From the IMG/VR virus record IMGVR_UViG_3300049483_000343, positions 1-23,765 of that record: a stretch of 23,765 nt of DNA; one strand, 5' to 3'. Position numbers and translations under genes: made by a program. Under the pieces are notes generated by a model. The model was not told the origin of the DNA. It made no database searches and worked only from the letters and a program-made list of their open reading frames with translations. Position 1 is the first letter of the stretch, and every line of letters begins with the position of its first letter. This DNA is from a virus. Positions 3,402-23,765 of the stretch are shown here, piece by piece.

Positions 3402-4337
3402 TTATAGTTGTCCGAGAGAGATGAACATAGCCGCTGCATTGATTTCGGGATCTGCAACGATCGTATGTTTGTAAAGGTGTTCAGCAATCACAACGATTGC
3501 TGCCTCCCACTTGTCTTTGTTTTCAAACTTTGGTGAACGAGAGATGTTCTCGTACAGGAAGCGATATACACCCTCCCACTCTTCCGCTGTAACGCTCGCA
3601 CAAACGAGCTTACGAGCCTCAATCCACTTGTTTGCTTCGATCAGGTCAATCAGCTTGAACTTGTAGTCACCTGTTGTTCCACTCAATACAGGTGGTTGTA
3701 ACTCACCCTTGACGGTATTCAGTTGCAACAGGTTGACAATCTTTCGGACATCGGGATATCCGTACGTAATGTACTTGTCGAGCAACCCAAGATCGAACTT
3801 GACAGTTTCTGATGCAAGGATTGTGATCAAATACTCTGCAATGTCGTTGACGTCTGCGGCGCGGAAGTGGAATTCCTGGCAACGTGATTGGATTGGAACG
3901 ATCACCTTGGAGACGGTGTTGCAGGTTAGAATAAACCGTACGTATTCGCTGGTTTCTTCCATGAACCGCTTTAACGCAGCTTGTGCTTGCGGTGTTAGTT
4001 GATCGGCCTCTTCTAGGTGAATGATCTTGAACCGACCCATTGCCATTGACATTGCAAAGTTCTTGATCGTGTTACGGAACACATCAATTCCTCGATCGTC
4101 AGAAGCATTCAGTGTCAAAACATCAGCGTCTTCCAGACCCATTGCTCGGATCAAGATTTGTGCAAGAGTAGTTTTTCCACTTCCCTGGACACCCGACAAC
4201 AGCAAGTGGGGGATTGACTGATCAGAGATCATCCGCATTACTGCGGCTTTTTGCTGTTGGTCGTGAAAGACGTATTGATCGATCGTTTGGGGTCTATATT
4301 TTTCCACCCACAACGAATGCTTATTGTTATCTGCCAT
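3402..4337 (-). CDS. 44: Clamp loader large subunit, AAA+ ATPase (gp44)
   Basis: A 311-residue protein (T4 gp44 is 319). ATG 4337 is preceded by GAGGAGAG. The N-terminus HSLWVEKYRPQTIDQYVFHD is the usual clamp loader opening. Walker A is GVQGSGKT (49-56). Walker B is IIHLEEAD (105-112), with Glu in place of the usual first Asp of the box. Sensor 1 is FILTCNT (135-141), followed by the SRC arginine-finger motif (151-153, SRCQEFHF). Residues about 160-310 form the lid and collar helices. Four copies with one gp62 hydrolyse ATP to place the sliding clamp gp45 on primer-template DNA for the phage polymerase; clamp and polymerase genes are not in this window. It probably has its own sigma70-type promoter in the 57-base gap upstream. 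It is separated from gene 62 by two unknown genes. Confidence 0.95.
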   Translation of the reverse strand: MADNNKHSLWVEKYRPQTIDQYVFHDQQQKAAVMRMISDQSIPHLLLSGVQGSGKTTLAQILIRAMGLEDADVLTLNASDDRGIDVFRNTIKNFAMSMAMGRFKIIHLEEADQLTPQAQAALKRFMEETSEYVRFILTCNTVSKVIVPIQSRCQEFHFRAADVNDIAEYLITILASETVKFDLGLLDKYITYGYPDVRKIVNLLQLNTVKGELQPPVLSGTTGDYKFKLIDLIEANKWIEARKLVCASVTAEEWEGVYRFLYENISRSPKFENKDKWEAAIVVIAEHLYKHTIVADPEINAAAMFISLGQL

Positions 4338-4394: not shown

Positions 4395-5768
4395 TTACAG
4401 ATACATGTCAATGCCATTCTTTCGAAGGATCTCTTCAATTTGAAGAAGTTCCCAGCTCTCTTCGCGGTTCAAACTGTCACCGTTGTCCTGTTTTGCTTTT
4501 AGGAACTTGTGGTGATTGATCAACTCGCGCATTTTTTCAGGAAGAACAGATCCATCACCCACCCAGCGTGAACCGGGGTAAGGACGGAACCGACGACCAG
4601 CGGCGGTTGCTGGATCTTCATTCGGTAGCTCTACGGGATCAACCGTTGACTGTTCAACTAATGGAGCTGCTTCTGGTTCAGGTTCCATATCGAAATTTAT
4701 ATCGAGATCTGTTTCTGGTTCAGGCAGTACGCTATCTGGCAGCGCGTGATCATATTCGAGATGATCAAGACTTCCACGAGGATATTCTACTGCGTGTTTT
4801 ACTGGTTCCAACTTGGCATCATAGTCGACGTGGTCAAGATTACCACGCTGATGCTCCACAGCATACTTTTCAACGCCTGGGTTGCCATCGACGTAATCAA
4901 CGCTATCAAGTACACCACGCTGATCTTCCACCGCGTACTTTTCCGGAGGTGGTGCAGGTGCCGGCAGCATCGGTTCTGGTGGAGTAAACGGAGGCGGTAC
5001 TGCTGGCTTATTGTTTTCTTTTTCTTCACGACGTAGGCGAAGTGCAATGTTGACAGCAAGTGTCAGTGCAACAGCCATAGGGTCAAAGGCAAAGATGATG
5101 ATCAGCACAAGCCACTTGGTCGCATCGTCGGTGCTTTGATTGAACGCCTTTGCAACATACGTAATAGGTCCGATGTGCGCTTCCGTCTTGATTACGTCTT
5201 GTTTGAGAGCCAACAGCTGTGTATCCAACTCCGTAATTCGCTTCGTTACAGTTTCTTGTTCGGCTCGATATTGGCGGACCAATTGGTCACGAGACCTTGT
5301 CGTTTCACGTAGTACGCGCGCGGCGTTGGCATCAATGTCACCGTTCTTTTTATTCACAGCTCCAACGACGGGGCCACCCGCCATTAGATCGTCAATCTGC
5401 TTTTTCCGAGCAAGTGCACGGCCCTTTTCGTCTTCAAGCAGGGTAATCTGTTCTGTCTTCTGTTTTAGAGGCAATACATCTTGCTGATATCCAGACGACA
5501 GATATCCAAAAATACCAAGCGACGTCAGCAACATTAAAGCCGCAATACCTGCCATTAGGTAGGCTTTCAGTGCAAAGTTAGTTTCTTTCCAATACCTGTA
5601 CAGGTAAGAAGCTGCAACCAGCTTGCCAGCTTCAAGAGACGCACCCATGATTACTACGGACCAAAACACACCGCTGAATGTGTTTGCAAGACCGTAGACA
5701 CTAAAATATGCTGCCGACCCGGCGATAGCCATTGTCGACGCAATAAGCAGCAAAATGAAAATCATCAT
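4395..5768 (-). CDS. Four-helix membrane protein with periplasm/cytoplasm coiled coil and 24-residue repeats
   Basis: A 457-residue protein whose ATG overlaps the stop of the GroES-like gene (TAATG), with GGAG just upstream. Hydrophobic segments at about 2-20, 34-57, 68-92 and 219-244 suggest four membrane spans. The second contains SVVIMGASLEAGKLVAASYL and the third ends LLTSLGIFGYLSSGY. From memory, a similar four-span protein is common in T4-like phages of marine bacteria, without known function. Residues about 98-200 between spans 3 and 4 are charged and probably a coiled coil. After span 4 comes a Pro-rich linker (257-275). Three near-repeats follow (EKYAVEDQRG at 276, EKYAVEHQRG at 300, VKHAVEYPRG at 323), each continuing with LD.(V/L)(D/E)Y. 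An acidic stretch and a short charged C-terminal domain (about 390-457) end the protein. A role in membrane-associated replication, lysis timing or superinfection exclusion can only be guessed. Confidence 0.85.
   Translation of the reverse strand: MMIFILLLIASTMAIAGSAAYFSVYGLANTFSGVFWSVVIMGASLEAGKLVAASYLYRYWKETNFALKAYLMAGIAALMLLTSLGIFGYLSSGYQQDVLPLKQKTEQITLLEDEKGRALARKKQIDDLMAGGPVVGAVNKKNGDIDANAARVLRETTRSRDQLVRQYRAEQETVTKRITELDTQLLALKQDVIKTEAHIGPITYVAKAFNQSTDDATKWLVLIIIFAFDPMAVALTLAVNIALRLRREEKENNKPAVPPPFTPPEPMLPAPAPPPEKYAVEDQRGVLDSVDYVDGNPGVEKYAVEHQRGNLDHVDYDAKLEPVKHAVEYPRGSLDHLEYDHALPDSVLPEPETDLDINFDMEPEPEAAPLVEQSTVDPVELPNEDPATAAGRRFRPYPGSRWVGDGSVLPEKMRELINHHKFLKAKQDNGDSLNREESWELLQIEEILRKNGIDMYL
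4749..4943 (-). repeat. Three in-frame 23-24 residue repeats in the membrane protein
   Basis: The encoded unit is (E/V)K(Y/H)AVE..RG.LD.(V/L)(D/E)Y, starting at residues 276, 300 and 323 of the membrane protein. The three copies differ by substitutions, so this is an old protein-level repeat rather than a recent DNA duplication. Confidence 0.8.
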
Positions 5769-6346
5769 TAAACTCCGTCGTCCATCGCGAGAATATCAGT
5801 ATCCTTGATAAACGATAATGTGACACCAGCGTGTCGGAACGTGTCTGTAAAGTTGGTGTCGCTGTAATACAAAATCTGGTCAGGTACAACACCGGAAGTA
5901 ACCTTTGGTCCAACATCGACTATTCGGCCTGTTGGTGTTTCGTCGTGGGCTTTACCGACGACGATGATCAGTGAACTTGGACGAACAAACTCCTTGGTAA
6001 TCTGCTTAAAAATCACATACTCACCAAGTGGGATCAGCGGAGCGTGGGGGTTATCACGAACTGCTACGGCTTGTGTTTCATCAGATCGCCATACCTTTTC
6101 ACCGTCAACCTTGAAGTGTGATGTCCAGCGAAGATTGGGGAGGAGAACCTGGGTGCCAGGTTTGATTGTTTCACATAGCGGACCGACAGCAACTACATTA
6201 ACCCACCGCGGGTTTTTTGCACTGTCATCAACACCTGGGTTCAGCAGAATTCCACCTGCGGAAGATTCTGGTTCAAATTGACCTTGTGAATTTACGCGAT
6301 CAACAAACGTAAAGGCAATGTTATTTCCAAGCGGTGTCAGCTTCAT
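5768..6346 (-). CDS. Tandem GroES/gp31-like co-chaperonin (two GroES folds)
   Basis: A 192-residue protein. ATG 6346 (MKLTPLGNNIAF) is preceded by AGGA and preferred over a TTG two codons upstream. Residues 1-97 resemble GroES: MKLTPLGNNIAFTF, a mobile-loop-like SSAGGILLNPG (compare KSAGGIVLTG of GroES), WVNVVAVGP, then a strand ending TQAVAV. Residues 102-192 repeat the fold: LIPLGEYVIFKQ (compare the GEYVI of T4 gp31), a loop with SSLIIVVGK, TGRIVDVGPKV, and DTDILAMDDG (compare ESDILAIVE of GroES). Single-domain GroES and T4 gp31 are about 97 and 111 residues, so this protein is twice the usual length. The expected role is to cap the host GroEL ring and enlarge its chamber for the phage major capsid protein. 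Both loops keep a hydrophobic tripeptide for GroEL contact. It is coupled to the membrane protein gene. Confidence 0.8.
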   Translation of the reverse strand: MKLTPLGNNIAFTFVDRVNSQGQFEPESSAGGILLNPGVDDSAKNPRWVNVVAVGPLCETIKPGTQVLLPNLRWTSHFKVDGEKVWRSDETQAVAVRDNPHAPLIPLGEYVIFKQITKEFVRPSSLIIVVGKAHDETPTGRIVDVGPKVTSGVVPDQILYYSDTNFTDTFRHAGVTLSFIKDTDILAMDDGV

Positions 6347-6377: not shown

Positions 6378-6626
6378 TTAGTCTGTGACCTGATCATCAT
6401 CCGGTGTTTCGTCATATTCTTCAACCGGTAGGGGTTGAGCTGTATCCGCAACTACTTTTGCCACGTCGCGGTTGAGCTTTTTGATACGACGCTTAAACTT
6501 CTGGTCGATGAAATCTTCACGGGCCTTGACGTTTGTCGTTTTTGGAGCTGACGCAATTTGCTGCTTGATCCGTAGTAGATCAAAGTCAACAACCTCGCCT
6601 CTTGCGCTCCGTACTGGTTTTGCCAT
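6378..6626 (-). CDS. Small charged protein, unknown
   Basis: An 82-residue protein starting at ATG 6626 behind AGGGGT. The N-terminal two thirds are basic and helical (VDFDLLRIKQQIASAP, then DQKFKRRIKKLNRDVAKVV), while the last 20 residues are strongly acidic (VEEYDETPDDDQVTD). I have a vague memory of the start MA.PVR.ARGEVVDFDLLRIK being conserved among T4-like phages of marine bacteria, but no function comes with it. A basic body and acidic tail would fit a nucleic acid-binding or scaffold-type protein. It lies between the polymerase stub and the GroES-like gene, and a late-type octamer inside the upstream gene could allow late expression. Confidence 0.8.
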   Translation of the reverse strand: MAKPVRSARGEVVDFDLLRIKQQIASAPKTTNVKAREDFIDQKFKRRIKKLNRDVAKVVADTAQPLPVEEYDETPDDDQVTD

Positions 6627-6641
6627 CTTGTATTACCCCTG

Positions 6642-7205
6642 TTATTCGTGCAAGAAATCGTCGATATCCAAACCATATTCAAAGGAGTCAACATCGTGAA
6701 CTCCGATAACATACAGTACGTATGACGACACACTACTACCTCTGCCGACACCCCAAACGGTATCCTTAGCGGTTAGTGTATTTATGATCCAAATTATAGC
6801 GCGCAACACGTCAAACAGACTATATTTGCGGTACAACATCAATTCCTGTGCAAGGCGACGCTCGCGTAACCCCATTTCTGTTGGGTCAGTACCCTCAAAC
6901 AATAGGCTATGAGCGGTTGATAGGTAGTCGATGACGTCCAACTGCTTGTACGTATTGGGGATTGTCCACTCAAATGAGAACGGTCTGTTTTCCGTTTTGA
7001 CTTGCAGTTTCTTGGCTGTTGATGCGTGTTTGTTGTATTGCTGTATTAGTGGCGTCAGTTCTGTGACGTACTGGATATCCCGTGTCTTTGCTGCTTGAAG
7101 GATTTGTTCAGGCGTGTACGCAGAATCACCATCAAACCAAAGAATACGATCTTTCAGTGATGTATTATGCGAAGGAGCTTTGGTATTTTCCACTTGATGT
7201 GTCAA
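6642..7205 (-). CDS. Truncated DNA polymerase III alpha-like protein (GRGS module)
   Basis: The frame allows up to 187 residues. Residues about 85-187 align with the start of the bacterial DnaE/PolC palm: helices (LAQELMLYRKYSLFDVLRAI, then WIINTLTAKDTV) followed by WGVGRGSSVSSYVLYVIG and VHDVDSFEYGLDIDDFL. In DnaE the same place reads [30 protein letters not shown]. The GS of this motif binds the incoming nucleotide in the pol beta superfamily. The protein stops right after this segment, before the PDFDVDF motif that supplies catalytic aspartates, so polymerase activity is not expected. The start is uncertain: the first in-frame start is TTG 7205, then GTG 7193, both inside the preceding gene with no clear ribosome site. 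An alternative role as an NTP- or DNA-binding regulator is inference. Confidence 0.75.
   Translation of the reverse strand: MTHQVENTKAPSHNTSLKDRILWFDGDSAYTPEQILQAAKTRDIQYVTELTPLIQQYNKHASTAKKLQVKTENRPFSFEWTIPNTYKQLDVIDYLSTAHSLLFEGTDPTEMGLRERRLAQELMLYRKYSLFDVLRAIIWIINTLTAKDTVWGVGRGSSVSSYVLYVIGVHDVDSFEYGLDIDDFLHE
6779..6786 (-). promoter_or_regulatory. Late-promoter-like octamer inside the polymerase-like gene
   Basis: The minus strand reads CATAAATA, identical to the octamers at 323-330 and 14761-14768. It is intragenic and 153 bases before the ATG of the small charged protein gene. It could give late transcription of that gene, the GroES-like protein and the membrane protein, but it could also be chance. 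Confidence 0.35.
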
Positions 7206-7542
7206 TGTCAGGTGTACGAACAGCTTGTCCAGGGTTACCCGCTGCTATCGGAACGCCTTGTGGGATCTGTGGGGGTGACATCATTCCACCGTTCCCCAAC
7301 CCACCGGGTGCCAGTTGCATCGGCATTTGTGGTTGTTGCAAATGTTGCGGAATCGGCAGTTGCATGATTTGCGGAGGAGGTGCAGGAGGTGGCGCGTCAG
7401 GAACGAGTGAATCAATCATCTCACGAATACGAAGCCACTGACGCTTGCTTGGAATCCACTCATCAGTATCTGCTGCAAATTCAACAGCATCAATGAACGT
7501 TTTCAGTTCGGAAACTGTTACCTTTTTTGGGGATGTTGCCAT
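7165..7542 (-). CDS. Small unknown protein with Pro/Gln/Met-rich C-terminus
   Basis: A 125-residue protein. Its ATG overlaps the stop of the nuclease gene (TAATG), and AGGAGAA sits inside the end of that gene. Residues 1-52 look folded and helical (VSELKTFIDAVEFAADTDEW, IPSKRQWLRIREMIDSLV). Residues 53-125 are low complexity, rich in Pro, Gln, Met and Gly (PPPAPPPQIMQLPIPQHLQQ), and likely disordered. From memory, the N-terminal pattern 'FI.AVEFA.DT.EW.PS.RQW.RIR..I' recurs in small proteins of T4-like marine phages of unknown role. Its 3' end overlaps the polymerase-like gene by up to 41 bases. A structural or adaptor role is a guess. Confidence 0.8.
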   Translation of the reverse strand: MATSPKKVTVSELKTFIDAVEFAADTDEWIPSKRQWLRIREMIDSLVPDAPPPAPPPQIMQLPIPQHLQQPQMPMQLAPGGLGNGGMMSPPQIPQGVPIAAGNPGQAVRTPDIDTSSGKYQSSFA

Positions 7543-8273
7543 TATAGTTCTCCTACTAAAAAGCTCAGCCGAGATTTAATCTGTTCGACATCAGTGTTGA
7601 GCACCTCAGACCATCCACTGAATGGTAGTTTGGAGCGCTGTCGAACGTCCTGGAACTCGGTTAGCATTTGTTGTTCAATCTTCCACGCACTATACAACGT
7701 CATTGTGTGTTCGGCTACTGTGATGTAAGTGAGCCCTGCGTATCTCTTCGACGTGGAGCGTTTTGTAATCCCAATTTTGTTGTACGTGTGGGTATTTACC
7801 TTTATTTGAACTAAGTAGACCTTAGCGGGAGCATCTCTCAACAAAGGATTGGCATCAAATACCCAGTCTTTGTATTTTCCTCCTGGGTATGTGCACTGGG
7901 GACATCCTTGCATTCCAGACAGGTGAGCATTTGGTGTCTTTGTAAAATCTCCATGCTTTTGGCAAGTAATTACCACATTGGCGTGACTGTTTACGTATTC
8001 GACCTTATCGTAACTATACGTAGATCTGTGGAGGTTGGTAGCTTTGTTTTTGAATGCTTCTGTGGTCAAAAACATGTTATCGTTCTTACACTGTTTACAG
8101 CCCCAGCCATTAAGATGTCCGTTGGGGGTTTGTCGAAATACACCGTGGGTTGGGCATTTGATATTCACTTTTGATCGGGTGTTGACATACACGACGGTGG
8201 AATAATCATACTTACCACTATGAATATGTGTGGCTTGTTGAACAAACTGTTCTTGTGTTTTACGTTTGGTCAT
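7542..8273 (-). CDS. Zinc-ribbon repeat and GIY-YIG-type nuclease (homing endonuclease-like)
   Basis: A 243-residue protein; its ATG overlaps the previous stop as TAATG. Residues 3-62 and 68-127 are two copies of a zinc-ribbon unit of the DUF723 type. Each has helix FVQQATHIH or FKNKATNLH, then YDYSTVVYVN or YSYDKVEYVN, then C-x2-H (C40/H43, C104/H107), HGVF or HGDF, HL.G, and C-x2-C (C59/C62, C124/C127). Residues about 150-230 look like a GIY-YIG nuclease of the T5orf172/MUG113 kind: KVYLVQI, YNKIGITKRSTSKRY (with the expected Arg at 177), a helix with E200, and FSGWSEVLN. Such proteins cut DNA and are often free-standing homing endonucleases; here no split gene or intron is evident next to it. 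Assignment to the superfamily is fairly sure, the biological role is not. Confidence 0.8.
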   Translation of the reverse strand: MTKRKTQEQFVQQATHIHSGKYDYSTVVYVNTRSKVNIKCPTHGVFRQTPNGHLNGWGCKQCKNDNMFLTTEAFKNKATNLHRSTYSYDKVEYVNSHANVVITCQKHGDFTKTPNAHLSGMQGCPQCTYPGGKYKDWVFDANPLLRDAPAKVYLVQIKVNTHTYNKIGITKRSTSKRYAGLTYITVAEHTMTLYSAWKIEQQMLTEFQDVRQRSKLPFSGWSEVLNTDVEQIKSRLSFLVGEL

Positions 8274-10767: not shown

Positions 10768-11316
10768 TTATTGTTTGATACCCTTTGTTTGCTGCTGGAA
10801 ATACAGCAGTTGAGAGATTTGTGTTTGCGTAAGAGGTGTTGGATCAAATGACGTTTGTACAGAATCATCAGGTGTTGGTGCAGGAACTGGATCCGTAGGT
10901 GCTGTAACTTCTGGTACAGAGGCTGGTGCACCAAAGGTTTCTGTTGCCATTTTCATCAACCACATTTTGATCTCTTCCGAAGGCAGGAAGATCGTAGGTA
11001 ACGGAATACCAAGTTGCAATGTACGGTGAATTTTTACCAACGGCTCCGATGGGTTTGAGATACTGATCAACGATAGAAATGGTGTCATTGGTTCAGATGG
11101 GTTGTATTCAATCGTCATCTTGATTGCCATTATTGTGTCAACAACATACACATCATCCCATGTGACAGCATCGTTAGGTAGGCCGAGCAACTCGATCAAC
11201 GCCTTCAACAACGTATCGTTAACAAAGCGAAATATCTTGCGGGTGCTCGATACTTTTAGCTTTTCACGTTGGTCAAACAGACCCAGCAAGTGTTCGATTT
11301 GTTCTAGGTTGTCCAC
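10768..11316 (-). CDS. Unknown protein between the nucleotidyltransferase and uvsY
   Basis: A 182-residue protein read from GTG 11316, with ACAGGATG as ribosome site, overlapping the previous stop by 13 bases. No ATG occurs in frame until about residue 63, so GTG is preferred. Residues 1-125 look folded, with helices (EQIEHLLGLFDQREKLKV, then DTLLKALIELLGL) and a hydrophobic mid-section (IFLPSEEIKMWLMKMATET). Residues 128-182 are rich in Pro, Thr and Gln (VPEVTAPTDPVPAPTPDD) and probably disordered, ending with QISQLLYFQQQTKGIKQ, which could be a partner-binding helix. No family is recognised. Its position suggests co-expression with UvsX and UvsY and possibly a link to recombination. Confidence 0.8.
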   Translation of the reverse strand: MDNLEQIEHLLGLFDQREKLKVSSTRKIFRFVNDTLLKALIELLGLPNDAVTWDDVYVVDTIMAIKMTIEYNPSEPMTPFLSLISISNPSEPLVKIHRTLQLGIPLPTIFLPSEEIKMWLMKMATETFGAPASVPEVTAPTDPVPAPTPDDSVQTSFDPTPLTQTQISQLLYFQQQTKGIKQ

Positions 11317-12365
11317 ATTGCATCCTGTACATCCATCACTAGTTGAGCAGCAAGTTTGATGTCTGGCCGCTTGGGCAGCGATGTCTTTGGGTACAACACC
11401 GTGCGTACGTGATTGTCCATCATTTCAGCGTACTCAACAACCTGTTCGTATGTCCAAGCTCCATTGCGAATTGTCAGCAGTTCTGCTGCATCGGGGCGAC
11501 GGACATTGAGTACCCCTGTTTCCAGTGCTTCTGCACCCATACGAAGCAGACGAACCAAGTGCATTGCATGCTTGGTGTCGTAGCCAAACTGTTCTTCCAA
11601 AACACTGCGTGACTTGTTGCGGTTCTTCTTCCACTCCCAGTAGTGCTCCCAATTTTCCTTGGCAGATGCATAAACGGCACGGTTGAACTTGACGATGAAC
11701 AGCGGCGTTCCAGCAGTGTGGCTGTCACCTTCAAAATCATCATTCAGTGCACCTGTTTCGATGTTGAATGGAGACTTGCCTGGCTGTGCATACACACCAA
11801 ACGTATCGCCGCTGAACGGAACAAGACGGTGTCCAAAATGATAATCCCGAAGATTGACTTTGAACATCTTCTCACCCGTGAAGTTATGCACGAGCGAAAC
11901 GAAGTCAACCTGCTGCGGCTGCCGTTCCGGCTGCGGGTTGTTGATCCATTTGTTGTGCCCCTTGATCCGCTTCAACTGTGATAGAGCGTATCCACTTGTT
12001 GTGAATGCAATCTTGCTGGACAACAGCTTTGGAGCTGCTTCACGAAGCATTTGATATGCGGGAGTGCTATGGACAACGTCTTGTTCTGCCACCCATAACG
12101 TTTCAACAACGTTCGGATTGCAATCAAGCGTTAGCTTCATGAATTGAAACAGCTCGTAAAATTTGGTATCTTCCTCGGTCGTGTCGTCAACTTCTTTGAT
12201 CGGGAAGAACGGAGTGCGGATGTTTATTGGATCGGCCAAAAAGATCCCTCGGAAATCAACGTCCGATGATGCGATGTTCGTACCGTATGCATGAGAACCT
12301 GCGTAATGCTTGACCAGCATGTTATCACGCATTAGCTCCTGTGCGGTTTTGATTGTTAGTGTCAT
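11304..12365 (-). CDS. Nucleotidyltransferase, RlaP/YcgL type (pol beta superfamily)
   Basis: A 353-residue protein starting at ATG 12365 behind AGGAAAT. A ten-residue longer frame lacks a ribosome site. The signature is near the N-terminus: GSHAYGTNIASSDVDFRGIF (23-42), with the GS of the nucleotidyltransferase fold and the metal-binding D35-x-D37. The body has helices and conserved-looking pieces (FYELFQFMKLTLDCNPNVVE, TLW; KHAMHLVRLLRMGAEAL), as in the family grouped under 'RNA repair pathway DNA polymerase beta family' (pfam10127). Members are common in large phages. They are thought to add nucleotides to RNA or protein ends, but the substrate here is unknown. It sits between uvsX and uvsY, possibly behind its own promoter. 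Superfamily membership is firm, the precise reaction is not. Confidence 0.85.
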   Translation of the reverse strand: MTLTIKTAQELMRDNMLVKHYAGSHAYGTNIASSDVDFRGIFLADPINIRTPFFPIKEVDDTTEEDTKFYELFQFMKLTLDCNPNVVETLWVAEQDVVHSTPAYQMLREAAPKLLSSKIAFTTSGYALSQLKRIKGHNKWINNPQPERQPQQVDFVSLVHNFTGEKMFKVNLRDYHFGHRLVPFSGDTFGVYAQPGKSPFNIETGALNDDFEGDSHTAGTPLFIVKFNRAVYASAKENWEHYWEWKKNRNKSRSVLEEQFGYDTKHAMHLVRLLRMGAEALETGVLNVRRPDAAELLTIRNGAWTYEQVVEYAEMMDNHVRTVLYPKTSLPKRPDIKLAAQLVMDVQDAMWTT

Positions 12366-12380
12366 AGGATTTCCTAAACG

Positions 12381-12411
12381 AAAAGAGGGCGACAAAGTAT
12401 CGCCCTCTTTT
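12381..12411 (-). terminator. Intrinsic terminator after uvsX
   Basis: AAAAGAGGGCGA pairs perfectly with TCGCCCTCTTTT around a 7-base loop, in the 65-base gap after the uvsX stop. The stem is GC-rich in the middle and ends in a run of T on both strands, so it can act as a Rho-independent terminator of the gp32-uvsX transcript. Confidence 0.85.
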
Positions 12412-16696: not shown

Positions 16697-18259
16697 TTAG
16701 TTGAACGCGTAGATTACAACATCGTCGTTCAGCAGAACACCTGCATTGAAAGTGATTTGGTTTGCACCGGTGACTGTGAATGCCTTCGAACCACCTTCTT
16801 GCTGGAAAACACCATTGCGGAATACTTGCAGATGAGAGAGTCCGCCACCAATTGCGACTGTTGAGAGGGTCGTATTGAATACAGTTTGTCCACCTGTTGC
16901 AACGAACGCTTCATATGCAGGGGCACCGCCGCCTACTGTCACTGTAACAGCACCGAGAACGTTGGTTGCTGTAATGTTTGCACCAACAAAGTTAAGAGAC
17001 GTTGCAGCAGCCGTGAGTTGGGAGCCTTCCTCGCTAACAGCCAACGGATTACCCGGAACTGTTACTGTGACGGCTGGTCCGCCGCTTGCCGTAACGCCAG
17101 CGCCAGCGAAGGTGAGGGACGTTGCAGCAGCTGTCAGTGATGTAACTTCGTCGATAACTGTGAGCGGGTTGCCAGGAACTGTGACAGTTACAGCTGGTCC
17201 AACGTTGGTTGCCGTAACACCGGGACCAACAAAGTTCATTGAGAACGCATCCGTAGTCAGTACGCTACCCTCGTCACTAACTGCCAGCGGACTACCGCTT
17301 ATCGACGTAACAGTCTGTAACGTAGGACGAACTAGGATTGAGTTGATATCAACAACTGCACCAACCACAACGCCGTCTGTTGGTTCTGTCGGGGTTAGGA
17401 CACCTGTTGGATCAACGTATAGAGGAGCACTAGGGCCTGCTGCTGTCCAATTCCAGGCGGGGTTGGTAACAACACCATCAAGAACGACGGTGACAACATC
17501 ACCAATCACAGCATCAATTTCAACCATACCGTACACAGAAGCAAACTCCATTAGTCCAGTTTGGAGTTCAACCTCGTGGAAACCAGAAAACTTGACAATG
17601 CTGTATGCAGGAATGTTGCTTGTTGCAACAGCTTCAATCATTACTGCACCAACCTTGACTCGTGAGGCAGATGCTACACTGGCTGTCACAACATCAGATG
17701 TTGTAAAGAATGCGCCGCCGTTACGTTTGACAGGATCGCCGTTCAAGTCAAATACGAGAGCTCCGGCGTCAACAGGAACTGCTGCAAGTGATCCAACCTG
17801 TGTACCTGTAAAATCAGGTGCATTGATTGACATACTGATAAATGTCGTACCGCTTTGATACTTGCCTGCGAATACACGGATCTTGTTAACCCACCGAGCC
17901 GCGGTAGTATTCCATACCTTCATCTTGTTCAGATTAGTATCAAACCAGTGCTGGTCGTTTACAGGAGACAGAGGGGCCGATGCAGCTTCAACCGGTTCAA
18001 ACAGCGTATGGCCGAACGTGCGAACACCACTTACTGGATTTAGATCCCAGTATAGCCAGTAGTCGGGACCACTCGTGAATGGACCTGTCCAAGCACTTGT
18101 TACGGTTGACCGTTCTGTATGCAGGTAGTTTGCTTGTCCATCAGCAAAAGCAACAAGCAGTAGTGCTGGCGAAGCGATTGAAAGATTAACCGTTGCACCG
18201 TTTGCTTGCAGGAAGGCGTTAGGTGCTTGAACGATACCTTGGCGAAAGTTGATTTGCAT
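16697..18259 (-). CDS. Fibre protein with three tandem 40-residue repeats
   Basis: A 520-residue protein starting at ATG 18259 behind CCAGGAG, 27 bases after a late-promoter octamer. Residues 1-60 contain an N-terminal beta segment. DQHWFDTNLNKMKVWNTTAA (102-121) and WVNKIRVFAGKY begin a domain shared with the fibre gene at the right edge, including GDPVKRNGGAFFTT (174-187) and VTNPAWNWTAAG (264-275). Residues 324-443 are three tandem repeats of about 40 residues: (S/N)PL.V.(D/E)E..(S/Q)LT..A.S..F.G..(V/I)TA....AVTVTV.G. The C-terminus (476-520) LQVFRNGVFQQEGG...FTVTGANQITF...LNDDVVIY again matches the right-edge fibre. The overall pattern is a trimeric fibre shaft with modular ends. Which fibre of the virion it forms is unknown. 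Confidence 0.85.
   Translation of the reverse strand: MQINFRQGIVQAPNAFLQANGATVNLSIASPALLLVAFADGQANYLHTERSTVTSAWTGPFTSGPDYWLYWDLNPVSGVRTFGHTLFEPVEAASAPLSPVNDQHWFDTNLNKMKVWNTTAARWVNKIRVFAGKYQSGTTFISMSINAPDFTGTQVGSLAAVPVDAGALVFDLNGDPVKRNGGAFFTTSDVVTASVASASRVKVGAVMIEAVATSNIPAYSIVKFSGFHEVELQTGLMEFASVYGMVEIDAVIGDVVTVVLDGVVTNPAWNWTAAGPSAPLYVDPTGVLTPTEPTDGVVVGAVVDINSILVRPTLQTVTSISGSPLAVSDEGSVLTTDAFSMNFVGPGVTATNVGPAVTVTVPGNPLTVIDEVTSLTAAATSLTFAGAGVTASGGPAVTVTVPGNPLAVSEEGSQLTAAATSLNFVGANITATNVLGAVTVTVGGGAPAYEAFVATGGQTVFNTTLSTVAIGGGLSHLQVFRNGVFQQEGGSKAFTVTGANQITFNAGVLLNDDVVIYAFN
16931..17290 (-). repeat. Three tandem 120-bp in-frame repeats
   Basis: It encodes residues 324-443 of the 520-residue fibre protein as three 40-residue units with the shared core SLTAAATSL.FAGA.(V/I)TA. 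A fourth, single unit lies in the 1327-residue fibre gene at about 19979-20092. Confidence 0.85.
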
Positions 18260-18285
18260 AAAAAACTCCTGGGGTTATGTACCCG

Positions 18286-18293
18286 TATTTATC
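18286..18293 (-). promoter_or_regulatory. T4-type late promoter (GATAAATA)
   Basis: The minus strand reads GATAAATA 27 bases before the ATG of the 520-residue fibre gene, in the 60-base gap. Spacing to the ribosome site and the structural product both fit a late promoter. Confidence 0.7.
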
Positions 18294-18319
18294 AGAACGA
18301 GCAAGGATCAAGTGAGTTG

Positions 18320-21300
18320 TCAGGTCAATGTCACTGATTTCCATCCCGGTGTACCGGTAAACTGATACACCCATAACGTGAGGACACCAGCGGTATCTTC
18401 AATCAACATAGGCGACATTCCTGCATATGTCGTTGGTGTGCCTACAGGAGGTCCTGCCGCCGCCAATGTTGGAATGTACACAAACCCGTCAGTAGCCCCA
18501 ACAGCAATCGAAGGAACACCAGCTATAACGTTGCCAAGTTGATCAACAATCACCCGTTCAGCGGCGGTATTGTCTGTCCCTGTTGTAATGACAACACGGC
18601 CTGCATTGTTAGGATTCGTTGAATCTGATGTCGTACCAGTGATCGTTACATCCGGGAAGGACAGGCTTGCCAAGTTGTCAGCTGTTGACGATGGAACTCC
18701 CGGCCCAGCAATTCTGCCTCCGCGAATACTTACACTACCAGAAACACCATCGGGTGCTGCATTAACGGTTCCAACTGTAACGGAGAAGCCTGCACCGGTA
18801 CCGCCAACGTTAGCAGCAAGCACTGACAATACATCACCAACTTGGTATCCGTATGCACCAAAGACGCCGGTCAATGATACAACGGCTCCACCTGCAATCG
18901 TGAAGGTTGCGGCTGCATCTTGACCAGTTCCACCTGTGAATTGAGCACTGAATACACCGTTGGTATACCCAGCTCCACCCGCAAAAGCAGAGAAGGAAAG
19001 AATTCGACCGGTAACTGCTTGTGTACCGCCAGCGTTGATGTCAATATTTGATGGACTAGTAGCAGCAGGTCCGGTGATTTGCACAAACCCACCAAGAACG
19101 GTTGATGATGTTGCATAATCATCAGCATACACATCTGCCGCACGAAATGTAGCACTACCAGCACCAGCTGTAAAGTCAGCGCCACCTGATGAAAGGATCA
19201 AACTACCACCACCTAATAGGTAATTTTTACTGCTTCGAGAACCAGCAGCATAAATTTGGGTAGAAAACGGCTCATTAGCTCCAACGGCGTTGACTGTGTC
19301 TACATCAATACTAAACCCACTACCACCCGTGGTAGTGCTTCCCAGCGCGAACGAATCGCGCAATGTCAACGGTTCACCAACCTCGTAACCGTAGCTACCA
19401 ATTCCAAGTTCAACAGGAGTTACCGCAGTAACGATACCACCAGCAACAGTAATGTCTGCATGGGCATTATATCCGTTAATGCCGGTCAAAGGAACAGTTA
19501 GATATGTTCCGTCGACGTATCCTGTTCCACCGACAAGATTAGTCAGTGTTACAATTTTTCCAAACTGGGTGTTGATATTGTAAAAATCATCATTGAATGT
19601 GTCGTAGTTAATTGCAACCAACCCTGTCAATGGATCCATCATCGTAGATGGTGCACTAGTGATACCAGTTTGAATCGATGCTACTGTCAGCAAGAATGGG
19701 CCAGCACTGATATTGCCGTTGTCTGTTAAAGTATCACCAACTTGGTATCCAAACCCAAAATCAGTAAGGGTAACTGCTGTAACTACACCACTGCCGTCTG
19801 TTGTGAATGTTGCAATTGCTCCTTGACCTGTTCCTGTCACAGCTGATAGGAATATATCGGGAGCTATTACGTTTGAGGCTCCACCTGTACCACCGTTTGT
19901 AATCGTTAGAGTAGCAATCATACCGGTCTTGCCGTACACAATTTGTTGTGCTGGCTCTGATACTGATCCACCACCCCCCGGAATTGTTACTGTAACAGCT
20001 GGACCACCAGATGCTGTAACACCAGCTCCAACGAAATTGATTGATGTTGCAGCTGCTGTTAGTGTTGATCCTTCATCCTGGATTGTTAACCCACCTCCTC
20101 CACCCAGAGACGTTACTGTCAAAACTTCATTATCAGGACCAGAAGGTGTTAGCAAGAAGTCGCCCGTATCAAACACCAGTGTGCGTGGAATTGCCAGATC
20201 GCCACTCGGTACTTCCATTGTAACTGTGTTGTCATCAGTGATTACCAAGTGCTGCGGCTCAATCGTTACTTGTTGGTTAGATATTGGCGTTACGCGCATT
20301 CCTGGGTATTGAGCGATCGTGGTTGCTTCAAATAGGTCTGTCACCGGAAATTCGTTTGGTGTTGTTAAGTAAGAAGCACTGGACACATTATACAAATCGC
20401 GCGGTGTCAAGCGCAATTCGTCGATCAGCACTCCGTTAGAATCAGGGTCTGCTTCACCTCCACCGTCCAGTGGTCGAAGCTGCATATTCCACGGGATAGA
20501 CGTTGGCGTTCCTGGTGGAAATAGCTGTCCTGAACCAATGGCTGTTCCATTGAACACACTAACGCCGTTACGGAATAATGCCCAGCTGTCTTGTACAAGG
20601 TCGACGGCAATTGCCCACTTGATGTAGGTATCCATTGGATTACCGAGGTTTGCGTAAACAAGATTACCGCTACTATTTCTGATCTCCAAATCCCAATCAG
20701 TTACGTTGTCAATAACGTACATATTGAACGGGTACGGAAAAATACGATTGACGGTAAAGATACGACCGTCAACGCGTGGCGCTGCCCCTGGCTTGCGCAA
20801 ACTGAATTCCATTGTCCACTGGGAGAAGGGAAGCGGTGTCGTCAACAGATCAAGATCACCACCGGCTGAAGGGTTATTGTGTAGTGCTGAAACACCGTAT
20901 TCGCCCGGTGCTTCTTGCAAATAACCATTCGCATCTATTACTGCTCCTGTGATCCGTTCTGTAATAGTTCCCGCCTGAAGACCGCCGTCAATGTTATTGA
21001 AGTGGTATAGTTGCAACGTAGGATCACCGTTTGTCGTGATAAAGCTATCAACGGTAACGATCTCACTTGCTACACCACTAAGTGCAGCGCGTAATCCTTG
21101 ATTGAACACTACTTGTGTTGTTGCATTGTTGACGATGTTTGGATAATCGCCGGTGACAGGTATGATTTGGACATTACCATACGGATTTGCGTTATCGAGC
21201 AGTTGCATTGCCTGCTGTTCAACGGTAATTTGACCAACGCCTTGTGTTAGACGCAGGTTGGGGAACGCAAACGTATCGTGCGTTGGAGACGCGTTAAACA

Positions 21301-22303
21301 CGTATTCAGCAGGTGGAATTGCAACACCAGTAACATCGACATTTGAAATTAAAGCAGGAATATTGCCCGGAGAACCAGGACCCGTACCGCCGCCCGCTTG
21401 TCCACCGCCGGTAATTGACAAACGCCAGAACTTGTTACCTGCAAAAGTGTTGATTGCATTTGGTAGCGTTAATGAGTAAAACACATCGGCAACACCATCA
21501 CCAGTGCCAACTCCCGTTGCAGTGAACACAACACCAACGGTGTTTGCCGAAGCACCAATGGCAACGAAGTTAGTTGTACCAACCGTGGCAATTTTGTATT
21601 GGCGACCAACTTTGAAGCTACCCGCTTGCACGCCTTTGATGGTGATATCTAATGTTGCTCCTGTTACTGTGACTACGATGTCGCGCGATGTCGTCGGAGT
21701 TGCCCATAGTCCGTCACCTTGCAAGTATGGGAACGTGTCGGGCTGCACAGGAATCAGTTCGTTGTTGTTGTCATCGCGAACGTGAAACGAATCGATAAAC
21801 GGTGCAAACGCGCTGTGTGATTGGTAAAAAATCGAGTATGAAGCAAAGCCGAGACTGAAAAAAGCCGAAGGAGAATGTTGGACAGAGATAAAGAGGTTCA
21901 TTCCAATTGACCCTACTTTACGGGCAGCAGTAAATTGGAACGTGTACCCGCTTGTTACGGTAGCATTTGGATTATTTGCAAAAGTAGCAAGGTACTCTTG
22001 AAAAAAGTTCGCATTCGTCAGCTCCAACGTGCTTCCCATTACAATAGGACCCGTTGGAGTAATCGTAACAGGAACGTTTGACGACGGCGAAGCAAAGTTG
22101 TTGTTGTCGTTGAACGTGAATTGGGTTGGAACTACACCTTGGGCGACGTTGAAGTAAGCTGTACCACCAGCGGCGTCGTCGGCACTCCAATTTCCAGAAT
22201 TGTATGTCAATACCTGTCCGTCAACGGGACTTGTAATCTCAACGTCTGCGAGGTCGTTGAGATTGGCGCTTACCTGGCGGCCTGTAACTTTTTGCTGTGT
22301 CAT
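18320..22303 (-). CDS. Large fibre/adhesin protein with LamG-like domain and repeated modules
   Basis: A 1327-residue protein starting at ATG 22303. In order: LNDLADVEITSPVDGQVLTY (15-34), a common tail-fibre segment; a beta-rich region; at 227-272 a unit with AGSFKVGRQYKIATVGTTNF followed by GASANTVGVVFTATGVG, often seen in fibres of marine phages; at about 420-645 a LamG/concanavalin-like domain (LQLYHFNNIDGG, FSQWTMEFSLRKPG, WALFRNGVSVF, LIDELRLTPRD); at 738-775 one copy of the SLTAAATS repeat; at about 795-878, 916-1006 and 1100-1182 three copies of a 'GG.GY..G...LTG.....A.ITVAGG.V..V......GY.VGD.L....GG.G(S/A)GFS' module; then a C-terminal domain ending WVYQFTGTPGWKSVTL, which looks like a capping tip. 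LamG-like domains usually bind carbohydrate, so host-surface binding is likely. It has its own late promoter. Confidence 0.85.
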   Translation of the reverse strand: MTQQKVTGRQVSANLNDLADVEITSPVDGQVLTYNSGNWSADDAAGGTAYFNVAQGVVPTQFTFNDNNNFASPSSNVPVTITPTGPIVMGSTLELTNANFFQEYLATFANNPNATVTSGYTFQFTAARKVGSIGMNLFISVQHSPSAFFSLGFASYSIFYQSHSAFAPFIDSFHVRDDNNNELIPVQPDTFPYLQGDGLWATPTTSRDIVVTVTGATLDITIKGVQAGSFKVGRQYKIATVGTTNFVAIGASANTVGVVFTATGVGTGDGVADVFYSLTLPNAINTFAGNKFWRLSITGGGQAGGGTGPGSPGNIPALISNVDVTGVAIPPAEYVFNASPTHDTFAFPNLRLTQGVGQITVEQQAMQLLDNANPYGNVQIIPVTGDYPNIVNNATTQVVFNQGLRAALSGVASEIVTVDSFITTNGDPTLQLYHFNNIDGGLQAGTITERITGAVIDANGYLQEAPGEYGVSALHNNPSAGGDLDLLTTPLPFSQWTMEFSLRKPGAAPRVDGRIFTVNRIFPYPFNMYVIDNVTDWDLEIRNSSGNLVYANLGNPMDTYIKWAIAVDLVQDSWALFRNGVSVFNGTAIGSGQLFPPGTPTSIPWNMQLRPLDGGGEADPDSNGVLIDELRLTPRDLYNVSSASYLTTPNEFPVTDLFEATTIAQYPGMRVTPISNQQVTIEPQHLVITDDNTVTMEVPSGDLAIPRTLVFDTGDFLLTPSGPDNEVLTVTSLGGGGGLTIQDEGSTLTAAATSINFVGAGVTASGGPAVTVTIPGGGGSVSEPAQQIVYGKTGMIATLTITNGGTGGASNVIAPDIFLSAVTGTGQGAIATFTTDGSGVVTAVTLTDFGFGYQVGDTLTDNGNISAGPFLLTVASIQTGITSAPSTMMDPLTGLVAINYDTFNDDFYNINTQFGKIVTLTNLVGGTGYVDGTYLTVPLTGINGYNAHADITVAGGIVTAVTPVELGIGSYGYEVGEPLTLRDSFALGSTTTGGSGFSIDVDTVNAVGANEPFSTQIYAAGSRSSKNYLLGGGSLILSSGGADFTAGAGSATFRAADVYADDYATSSTVLGGFVQITGPAATSPSNIDINAGGTQAVTGRILSFSAFAGGAGYTNGVFSAQFTGGTGQDAAATFTIAGGAVVSLTGVFGAYGYQVGDVLSVLAANVGGTGAGFSVTVGTVNAAPDGVSGSVSIRGGRIAGPGVPSSTADNLASLSFPDVTITGTTSDSTNPNNAGRVVITTGTDNTAAERVIVDQLGNVIAGVPSIAVGATDGFVYIPTLAAAGPPVGTPTTYAGMSPMLIEDTAGVLTLWVYQFTGTPGWKSVTLT
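18758..19006 (-). repeat. Module copy 3 in the 1327-residue fibre gene
   Basis: It encodes residues about 1100-1182 (FAGGAGYTNGVFSAQFTGG, YGYQVGDVLSVLAANVGGTG, AGFSV). It shares a 17-base stretch (tcaccaacttggtatcc on the plus strand) with copy 1, so similarity is still visible in the DNA. Confidence 0.8.
19286..19558 (-). repeat. Module copy 2 in the 1327-residue fibre gene
   Basis: It encodes residues about 916-1006 (LVGGTGYVDGTYLTVPLTG, ITVAGGIVTAV, YGYEVGEPLTL, TTGGSGFSIDV). It shares the exact ITVAGGIVT core with the copy in the 315-residue fibre protein. Confidence 0.8.
19670..19921 (-). repeat. Module copy 1 in the 1327-residue fibre gene
   Basis: It encodes residues about 795-878 (TLTITNGGTGG, FTTDGSGVVTAVTLTDFGFG, YQVGDTLTDNG). 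It is the most diverged of the three copies in its second half. Confidence 0.75.
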
Positions 22304-22331
22304 GTGCTATGATCCATTGTATAGGGTAGAG

Positions 22332-22339
22332 TATTTAGT
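22332..22339 (-). promoter_or_regulatory. Late-promoter-like octamer (ACTAAATA)
   Basis: The minus strand reads ACTAAATA 28 bases before the ATG of the 1327-residue fibre gene, in the 41-base gap. It keeps the TAAATA core but differs in the first two bases, a variant plausible for a late promoter given its position. Confidence 0.55.
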
Positions 22340-22344
22340 CGGGG

Positions 22345-23765
22345 TTACAACACGTAACTAACGACAACAACGTCATCGTTCAAGGCAAGCGGTGTTAAAA
22401 ATGTGATCTGGGTTGCACCGGTCACTGTAAACGACTCACCAGCACCTTCGATCTGCAAAATTCCGTTGAGGAATACTTGAATTCGCAGCAGTGGAGCGGC
22501 AGATGATTGCAAGTTGATCGTTGTGTTGACAACTGTTTGTGCCGCTGACGCAATAATTCGCTGGAACCGTGGAACCTTGTTATCAACGTACTGCTTGGTT
22601 GCCGCACCAAGTGCTGTCACTGGATCACCCGATAGGATCAATAATCCCGTCATCGTATCACCAGCTTTGCTGACCTTACCGTCTACGTATTGCTTCGTTG
22701 CAGCACCTAAGGCTGCCACTGGATCACCAGACAGAACCAAAAGGCCCGTCATTGTATCGCCGGCTTTGCTGACCTTTGTGTCTACATATGTTTTGTTTGC
22801 TGCATCAGTGCCAACGATTGGTGCATTAGGTAGTGTGATTTTTGTGCTGCCACCTGACATTACCAGGTTACCGGTCATCGTATCGCCGGCCTTTAACACC
22901 TTATTCGACAAGCGAGGATCATTGTCGCCTACGACAATCGGGTTACCAACGTCTGCTGCGGGGGTCGATAGCTTCGAAATGCCAAACACTGTTGTTGTTG
23001 CGAGTTCGACACCAAGCACATCTCCACTTTCACCTTTATCGCCCTTACCACCAAGTCCTTGGTCGAAAAATATGCTTGTTGGTGACAATACACGAGCAAC
23101 CGGAACACGACTGGTTGGATAAACAAACGCGTTTGCAACGTGGGGGTCAACATCTGTCAGTGCACCCGTGTCATCGGACCACAGCAATGCGCCAACTACT
23201 GTCCAACTCCACGCTGGATTGACAATTGTACCCTGCATTACAACAGTGCCAGTTTGGCCTGTTGTCAAGTTTTCCATTAGCATTGCAACCGCAGTTTCAC
23301 CAATATCGTCATATGTGCACGGAGCAATTTGTCCAAAGTCAACATACTTGACTACTTGGAACTTGGCGATTGGTTGGATTGCTGTACCTGTCAGGACATT
23401 TGCTTCCAACCGGATTGTGTTGACTGGTGAACCGTTAACGAAGAAGTCGCTTTCAGTCGTGAAAAACCGGCCGTCAACACGCCTTACTGGATTGCCAGAA
23501 TCATCTACAATAATTCTTCCAGCTTTCGATCCGGCAATGTTCAATCCGGCTTGTGTTCCAGCATATGGGAACGATGGAAATCCTGTTCCAAGAGGTGTAA
23601 ATGTTGACGTGTTGATCTTTGCTGCAAATACACGCAGTACATTGCGGAATGCACCTGTGTCATACACGTACATCTTACGAGCAGATGTGTCAAACCAATG
23701 CTGATCTTGTGTTGGTGCACCTACGAATGACGGTCCATAAGAGGGAGCAAGTTGTGTTGCACCAA
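22345..23765 (-). CDS. Tail fibre protein with KAGDTMTG repeats, N-terminus outside the window
   Basis: The frame is open to the right edge, giving at least 472 residues. An ATG at 23673 is not the true start, since the upstream in-frame residues APTQDQHWFDTSARK match DQHWFDTNLNK of the 520-residue fibre. Numbered from that ATG: DSGNPVRRVDGRFFTT (58-73) and IVNPAWSWTVVGALLWSDD (150-168) match the same paralogue. GLGGKGDKGESGD (206-218) is a short collagen-like Gly-x-y run. Residues 258-366 hold three copies of K(V)xKAGDTMTG(N/L)L(V/I)(M/L)SG...AA(T/N)K(Q/T)YVD, the classic shaft repeat of phage tail fibres. The C-terminus (396-442) IQVFLNGILQIEG...FTVTGATQITF...LNDDVVVV matches the end of the 520-residue protein. 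A fibre role is secure; which fibre is not known. Confidence 0.9.
   Translation of the reverse strand, partial: GATQLAPSYGPSFVGAPTQDQHWFDTSARKMYVYDTGAFRNVLRVFAAKINTSTFTPLGTGFPSFPYAGTQAGLNIAGSKAGRIIVDDSGNPVRRVDGRFFTTESDFFVNGSPVNTIRLEANVLTGTAIQPIAKFQVVKYVDFGQIAPCTYDDIGETAVAMLMENLTTGQTGTVVMQGTIVNPAWSWTVVGALLWSDDTGALTDVDPHVANAFVYPTSRVPVARVLSPTSIFFDQGLGGKGDKGESGDVLGVELATTTVFGISKLSTPAADVGNPIVVGDNDPRLSNKVLKAGDTMTGNLVMSGGSTKITLPNAPIVGTDAANKTYVDTKVSKAGDTMTGLLVLSGDPVAALGAATKQYVDGKVSKAGDTMTGLLILSGDPVTALGAATKQYVDNKVPRFQRIIASAAQTVVNTTINLQSSAAPLLRIQVFLNGILQIEGAGESFTVTGATQITFLTPLALNDDVVVVSYVL
22576..22902 (-). repeat. Three in-frame KAGDTMTG/YVD fibre repeats
   Basis: It encodes three units of about 35-42 residues, each with KAGDTMTG and ending K(T/Q)YVD(T/G/N)KV. 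The last two are nearly identical in protein (LSGDPV(A/T)ALGAATKQYVD), pointing to a fairly recent duplication. Confidence 0.85.

Follow-up and report, generated by a model that had tools for sequence, protein, structure and literature searches.

A probable co-chaperonin of T4-like phages with two tandem GroES folds

The stretch of viral DNA analysed here (IMG/VR record IMGVR_UViG_3300049483_000343; 23,765 nucleotides, referred to as the window) encodes a protein of 192 amino acids that consists of two complete GroES folds in tandem, an N-terminal half of the gp31 type and a C-terminal half of the GroES type. We consider it likely that the protein is a phage co-chaperonin whose two head-to-tail folds cap the GroEL of the host in the way of gp31 of phage T4. 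So far, discussion of tandem co-chaperonins has treated them as peculiar to plastids and the apicoplast, and a search of the open-licence literature yielded no description of a tandem co-chaperonin from a phage. The gene starts with an ATG at position 6346 and ends with a TAA stop codon at 5770-5768, and its assignment is supported by matches to PF00166, PHROG 931 and PHROG 3188 and by an AlphaFold2 model. A first-pass annotation of this DNA had given the limits of the open reading frame, 5768-6346, correctly. The frame is on the minus strand and reads from 6346 to 5768; the plus strand across this interval contains many stops.

Domain 1 comprises amino acids 1-98 (6053-6346, minus strand) and belongs to the type found in the gp31-like slot of related phages, where it has single-domain orthologues. 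A linker of amino acids 99-103 (6038-6052, minus strand), delimited in an alignment of the tandem proteins, among which its length varies, leads to domain 2 (amino acids 104-192; 5771-6037, minus strand), which is of the GroES type. Against the Pfam Cpn10 family (PF00166) the whole protein scores 35 bits (E 1.5e-8) at a cut-off of 21.1 and contains two matching stretches; the C-terminal half alone lies over this cut-off with 21.3 bits, and the N-terminal half alone lies under it (17.9 bits, E 0.003). Each half has its own match among the phage co-chaperonin families, the N-terminal half to PHROG 931 (E 7.8e-7) and the C-terminal half to PHROG 3188 (E 5.8e-7), in agreement with the proposal of the first-pass annotation that two GroES folds are joined here. 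As T4 gp31 itself falls into PHROG 931 (E 3.7e-50) and GroES-type phage proteins match PHROG 3188 best, the halves differ in type, the first being more gp31-like and the second more GroES-like. This roughly reverses the earlier assignment, which had read the first half as GroES-like and the second as a mixture of gp31 and GroES features; the short motifs quoted for it are all present in the protein. The two halves are also related to each other. Their profiles, built from 11 tandem proteins, were aligned by hhalign over their length at E 3e-14 and with a score of 75-77, whereas none of 100 column-shuffled controls scored above 21.6. When searched against the PDB, the domain-2 profile retrieved solved co-chaperonins with Cpn20 at the top (E 2.4e-10); the domain-1 profile built from tandems only gave no clear match, and a wider domain-1 profile, to which single-domain proteins had been added, matched GroES at E 0.003. 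Profiles are required for such comparisons, since a single-sequence search of PDB sequences returned no co-chaperonin and only chance matches to flavivirus envelope proteins (E 0.3-1.6). A first-pass PF00166 search of the window's own record also returned nothing despite the known match and is, thus, insensitive for this protein.

Structure prediction by AlphaFold2, based on 30 aligned sequences, yielded two GroES barrels and not one (mean pLDDT 87.9, pTM 0.82). Both Foldseek and VIA-align identified Chlamydomonas Cpn20 (7ekq, chain R) as the best match in the PDB across both domains, with 174 residues superposed at 3.9 Å (Z 13.6 in VIA; Foldseek E 1.8e-7), which bears out the likeness to Cpn20 that had been pointed out earlier. 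Each half also aligns separately with GroES and gp31 structures, reaching a Z of about 9-10 to GroES: in VIA, domain 1 alone gives a Z of 10.0 to 1p3h, 9.5 to 1aon and 8.9 to T4 gp31 (1g31), and domain 2 alone a Z of 10.2 at 1.9 Å to Cpn10 of T. thermophilus. The most divergent tandem protein (locus L084) is likewise predicted to form two barrels, at lower confidence (mean pLDDT 81.8, pTM 0.71), and aligns with 7ekq chain R over 164 residues. As a single superposition spans both domains, the model is naturally read with the domains side by side in the manner of Cpn20, and the arrangement taken from this monomer suggests that domains 1 and 2 probably fill adjacent positions of the lid ring, like those of the chloroplast protein.

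Each domain carries a predicted mobile loop with the hydrophobic segment that the first-pass annotation had noted, and the pattern is retained in the aligned tandem proteins. Predicted loop 1 (about amino acids 28-44, G-G-ILL; 6215-6265, minus strand) overlaps the least confident part of domain 1 in the model, amino acids 21-40 (block means 73 and 65), and its pattern of Gly plus hydrophobic residues occurs in 11 of 11 aligned tandems. In predicted loop 2 (about amino acids 119-138, SS-LIIVV; 5933-5992, minus strand) the confidence drops at amino acids 121-130 (mean 62); the hydrophobic segment is kept in the aligned tandems, and the window protein has a Ser where most of them carry Gly, which makes binding of GroEL by domain 2 less certain. 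The roof hairpin is absent from both domains, in which only a short segment connects the GP motif to the strand that follows. T4 gp31 lacks roof loops as well (PMC6318259), and a lid formed by the tandem protein would thus have an open top, as the gp31 lid does.

The gene resides in a block of conserved order, which begins with a helicase gene and two to three small genes. A DNA polymerase III alpha-like gene and one further small gene then precede the co-chaperonin gene, and the genes for a membrane protein and a gp44-type clamp loader follow it. Directly upstream in the window are two conserved genes (6378-7205, minus strand) for an 82-amino-acid protein and for a stand-alone DNA polymerase III alpha-type protein of 187 amino acids (6645-7205), which matches part of the NTPase domain of DNA polymerase III alpha (PF07733, E 8e-8). 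Such a polymerase-III-alpha-like gene is a conserved neighbour of the co-chaperonin gene in many T4-like phages. Downstream follows the gene for a conserved predicted membrane protein without a Pfam match, to which no function is assigned (4395-5768, minus strand). The stop codon of the co-chaperonin gene shares one base with the ATG of this gene in a TAATG junction, so that translation of the two may be coupled. In one relative (L001:6582-8045), the C-terminal part of the membrane protein contains a long repeat of the EPVV type. The sliding-clamp loader of the T4 gp44 type (3402-4337, minus strand), identified by its position and by the annotation in phages XacN1 (ORF241) and SCTP-2 of Salicola, anchors the synteny. 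Genes for proteins with DUF723 and T5orf172-like regions are inserted in the same conserved block in both the window (7542-8273) and L001 (L001:4029-4823), and are possibly mobile genes of the homing-endonuclease type. Elsewhere in the window, an RlaP-like nucleotidyltransferase (11304-12395; PF10127, E 4.6e-10) and internally repeated tail-fibre-like proteins (16697-23673; motifs TAAATSLNFVGAGVTA and KAGDTMTGLL) are encoded.

A search anchored on the genes for the membrane protein and the polymerase-like protein found many loci that encode single-domain proteins of about 96-146 amino acids, and the tandem proteins, at 186-216 amino acids, now amount to 13 distinct members in metagenomic phages in which the frame is kept (window, L001, L011, L012, L014, L015, L017, L020, L071, L072, L084, L176 and L179). 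Pattern searches with the C-terminal domain retrieved L001-type contigs only. A scan of genome contigs with the N-domain profile found no relative and thus points to no host. All 11 tandems that were scanned match PF00166, PHROG 3188 and PHROG 931, and their mean identity is 33% for domain 2 vs 46% for domain 1. Between the window and L001, dN is far under a saturated dS in both domains. The majority of the tandems occur in one clade of T4-like phages, probably jumbo phages, whose relatives carry a single-domain protein in the same slot. A single-domain protein of 103 amino acids fills the slot in the phages XacN1 (384 kb) and RAS14 (319 kb); it is orthologous to domain 1 at about 32-33% identity and is preceded by upstream neighbours in an order identical to that of the window. 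These two proteins, ORF243 of XacN1 (L004:3995-4306) and WAX21715.1 of RAS14 (L003:4001-4312), are labelled predicted or hypothetical and represent unannotated single-domain co-chaperonins. In total, XacN1 has at least two co-chaperonin genes, including ORF282, and RAS14 at least three; a further contig (L149, that of locus L035) encodes a canonical GroES of 97 amino acids besides a slot-type single-domain protein.

How the second domain was acquired can be approached by phylogeny. In a tree of the neighbouring genes, the nine tandem loci that could be included fall into one group of 14 rows (support 100/100), which also holds five single-domain members and implies a minimum of two changes of state. 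As some relatives in this group do without it, the second domain is not essential to the whole clade. In a tree of all domains, which has only about 98 columns, domain-1 sequences intermingle with the single-domain slot proteins, and ten domain-2 sequences cluster together (99/80); relative to a split supported at 97/86 they fall on the side of GroES, placed between the GroES and slot-type groups and not clearly within the former. A single origin for all eleven tandems is not rejected (p-AU 0.31); the divergent L084 may nevertheless stem from a separate tandem-forming event. A fusion of two phage co-chaperonins is plausible, because both XacN1 and RAS14 possess, in addition to the slot gene, separate GroES genes at other positions, and because two GroES-like ORFs have been described in phage CBB (PMC5259590). 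A duplication of domain 1 inside this phage clade appears improbable as the source of domain 2: the halves are clearly homologous and share the lack of a roof hairpin, but domain 2 groups apart from domain 1, across the split mentioned above, and a constraint uniting the N- and C-terminal domains of the tandems is rejected (p-AU 0.004). Domain 2 is therefore no recent copy of domain 1, and a recent duplication is rejected by this result; an older duplication may lie behind it.

By capping the GroEL of the infected host, the protein would promote folding of proteins of the phage, for instance of the gp23-type capsid protein, and each of its domains would present a flexible loop to one GroEL subunit. 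We infer the binding to GroEL, the arrangement of the ring and the client. No GroEL gene was found in 15 related contigs, the largest of 350 kb, and no second co-chaperonin gene in the tandem contigs, among them contigs of 350, 237 and 193 kb; as contigs may be incomplete, both absences are provisional. Action on the host GroEL is, accordingly, the most likely mode, and recruitment of the host Hsp60 has been proposed for jumbo-phage Hsp10 in general (PMC7824862). As no single-domain partner from the phage was seen, the lid should either contain six or eight domains or borrow one GroES from the host. The first-pass annotation had raised a symmetry mismatch with the sevenfold GroEL ring, which is a real question. 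Such a mismatch is not a necessary outcome, since three tandem chains and one single domain add up to seven, as in the Cpn11/20/23 cap.

It is quite possible, though we stop short of calling it probable, that the tandem protein acts alone, three or four chains forming a ring of six or eight domains on the sevenfold GroEL with a symmetry mismatch as in homo-oligomeric Cpn20. Besides the negative search for a second co-chaperonin in the tandem contigs, this would be in line with Cpn20 of Plasmodium and Arabidopsis, the homo-oligomers of which are mainly tetramers and function with GroEL, and with the ability of PfCpn20 to substitute for GroES in E. coli (PMC3542282). However, host GroES is always at hand as a seventh domain, and in algae and plants the native cap seems to be assembled from proteins of the Cpn10 and Cpn20 types to a total of seven domains (PMC5780408). 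Somewhat more doubtful is a mixed lid, in which three tandem chains and one host GroES would make up the seven domains, the lid of the host being rebuilt and not replaced. Such a composition has its counterpart in the chain counts of the 7ekq cap, where two Cpn20, one Cpn23 and one Cpn11 amount to seven domains, and in the seven-domain rings in which Cpn20/23 of Chlamydomonas join Cpn10 (PMC5780408), and a single-domain partner from the phage was not seen in the tandem contigs. It might tentatively be speculated, with still less assurance, that the result would be a mixed, mostly roofless seven-domain cap, by which the virus takes over GroEL through hybridising with the co-chaperonin of the host instead of displacing it.

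It is unlikely that domain 1 alone binds GroEL and that seven chains form a stacked cap, in which domain 2 would add an upper tier and make the chamber taller or gate its opening. The faster divergence of domain 2 and the missing conserved Gly in loop 2 of the window protein would fit this arrangement, but the hydrophobic segment of loop 2 is kept in the aligned relatives, the model superposes on the side-by-side Cpn20 across both domains, and the capsid proteins of tandem phages are no larger. The gp23-type open reading frames comprise 479, 481 and 486 amino acids in tandem phages (contigs with intact frames) and 450, 463, 485 and 487 amino acids in single-domain relatives. Thus, the earlier suggestion of a larger cap for folding a big capsid protein finds no support, either in these equal lengths or in the model, which does not suggest a taller, stacked dome. 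In the L015 contig, the gp23-type capsid match (G002:C1:116518-117723) is broken by three TGA and one TAA codons, and this interruption may reflect a frameshift, an insertion or recoding. For the question of how a lid with an even number of domains would meet a sevenfold chaperonin, and of how phages take over the GroEL of their hosts, the phage tandems are small and testable proteins, and the occurrence of one- and two-domain relatives in one gene slot provides a natural comparison.

Among known systems, Cpn20 of chloroplasts and the apicoplast (7ekq chain R) is similar in that a single chain, about 190-200 residues long, holds two Cpn10 domains joined head to tail. In contrast to Cpn20, the phage tandem is encoded by a viral gene in a T4-like replication-gene block, shares 17% identity with it, and has roof loops in neither domain, whereas Cpn20 has them in both (PMC3542282). 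No sign of descent from Cpn20 was found in the sequence, and a plastid origin does not fit a phage gene whose domain 1 clusters with the single-domain genes that related phages have in this slot. T4 gp31 (1g31) likewise is a phage co-chaperonin without a roof hairpin and shares its PHROG with the N-terminal half of the tandem; however, it is a single domain of 111 amino acids that forms a heptamer, and the neighbours of gene 31 in T4 differ. With two domains in one chain, the tandem is thus gp31-like in its N-terminal half and not a gp31 orthologue as a whole. ORF243 of XacN1 and WAX21715.1 of RAS14 occupy the same slot, with a polymerase-III-like gene on one side and the membrane protein and clamp loader on the other, but are single-domain proteins of phages that encode a separate GroES. 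Bacterial GroES (PF00166) has the fold of each half and the pattern of the mobile loop, but is a single domain with a roof hairpin whose gene adjoins groEL. Finally, Cellulophaga phages unrelated to the T4-like clade carry a tandem of 200 amino acids that has apparently gone unremarked so far: the predicted structure of gp096 of phage phi18:3 (BFVD S0A356; PHROG 13932, with near-identical phages), annotated merely as co-chaperonin GroES, matches the tandem lengthwise. In sequence, the window protein matches PHROG 13932 very weakly (E 0.09), and the best-matching of 11 tandems reaches E 0.00097. The Cellulophaga gene, unlike that of the window, lies beside the terminase gene in a phage with a separate GroES of 84 amino acids. 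Phage phi18:3 thereby combines a tandem (L152:41458-42060) with a single-domain GroES (L152:31108-31362), a combination like that of Cpn20 plus Cpn10. Taken together, the phage tandem family and the sequence-unrelated case in Cellulophaga phages suggest that the joining of GroES domains has evolved more than once.
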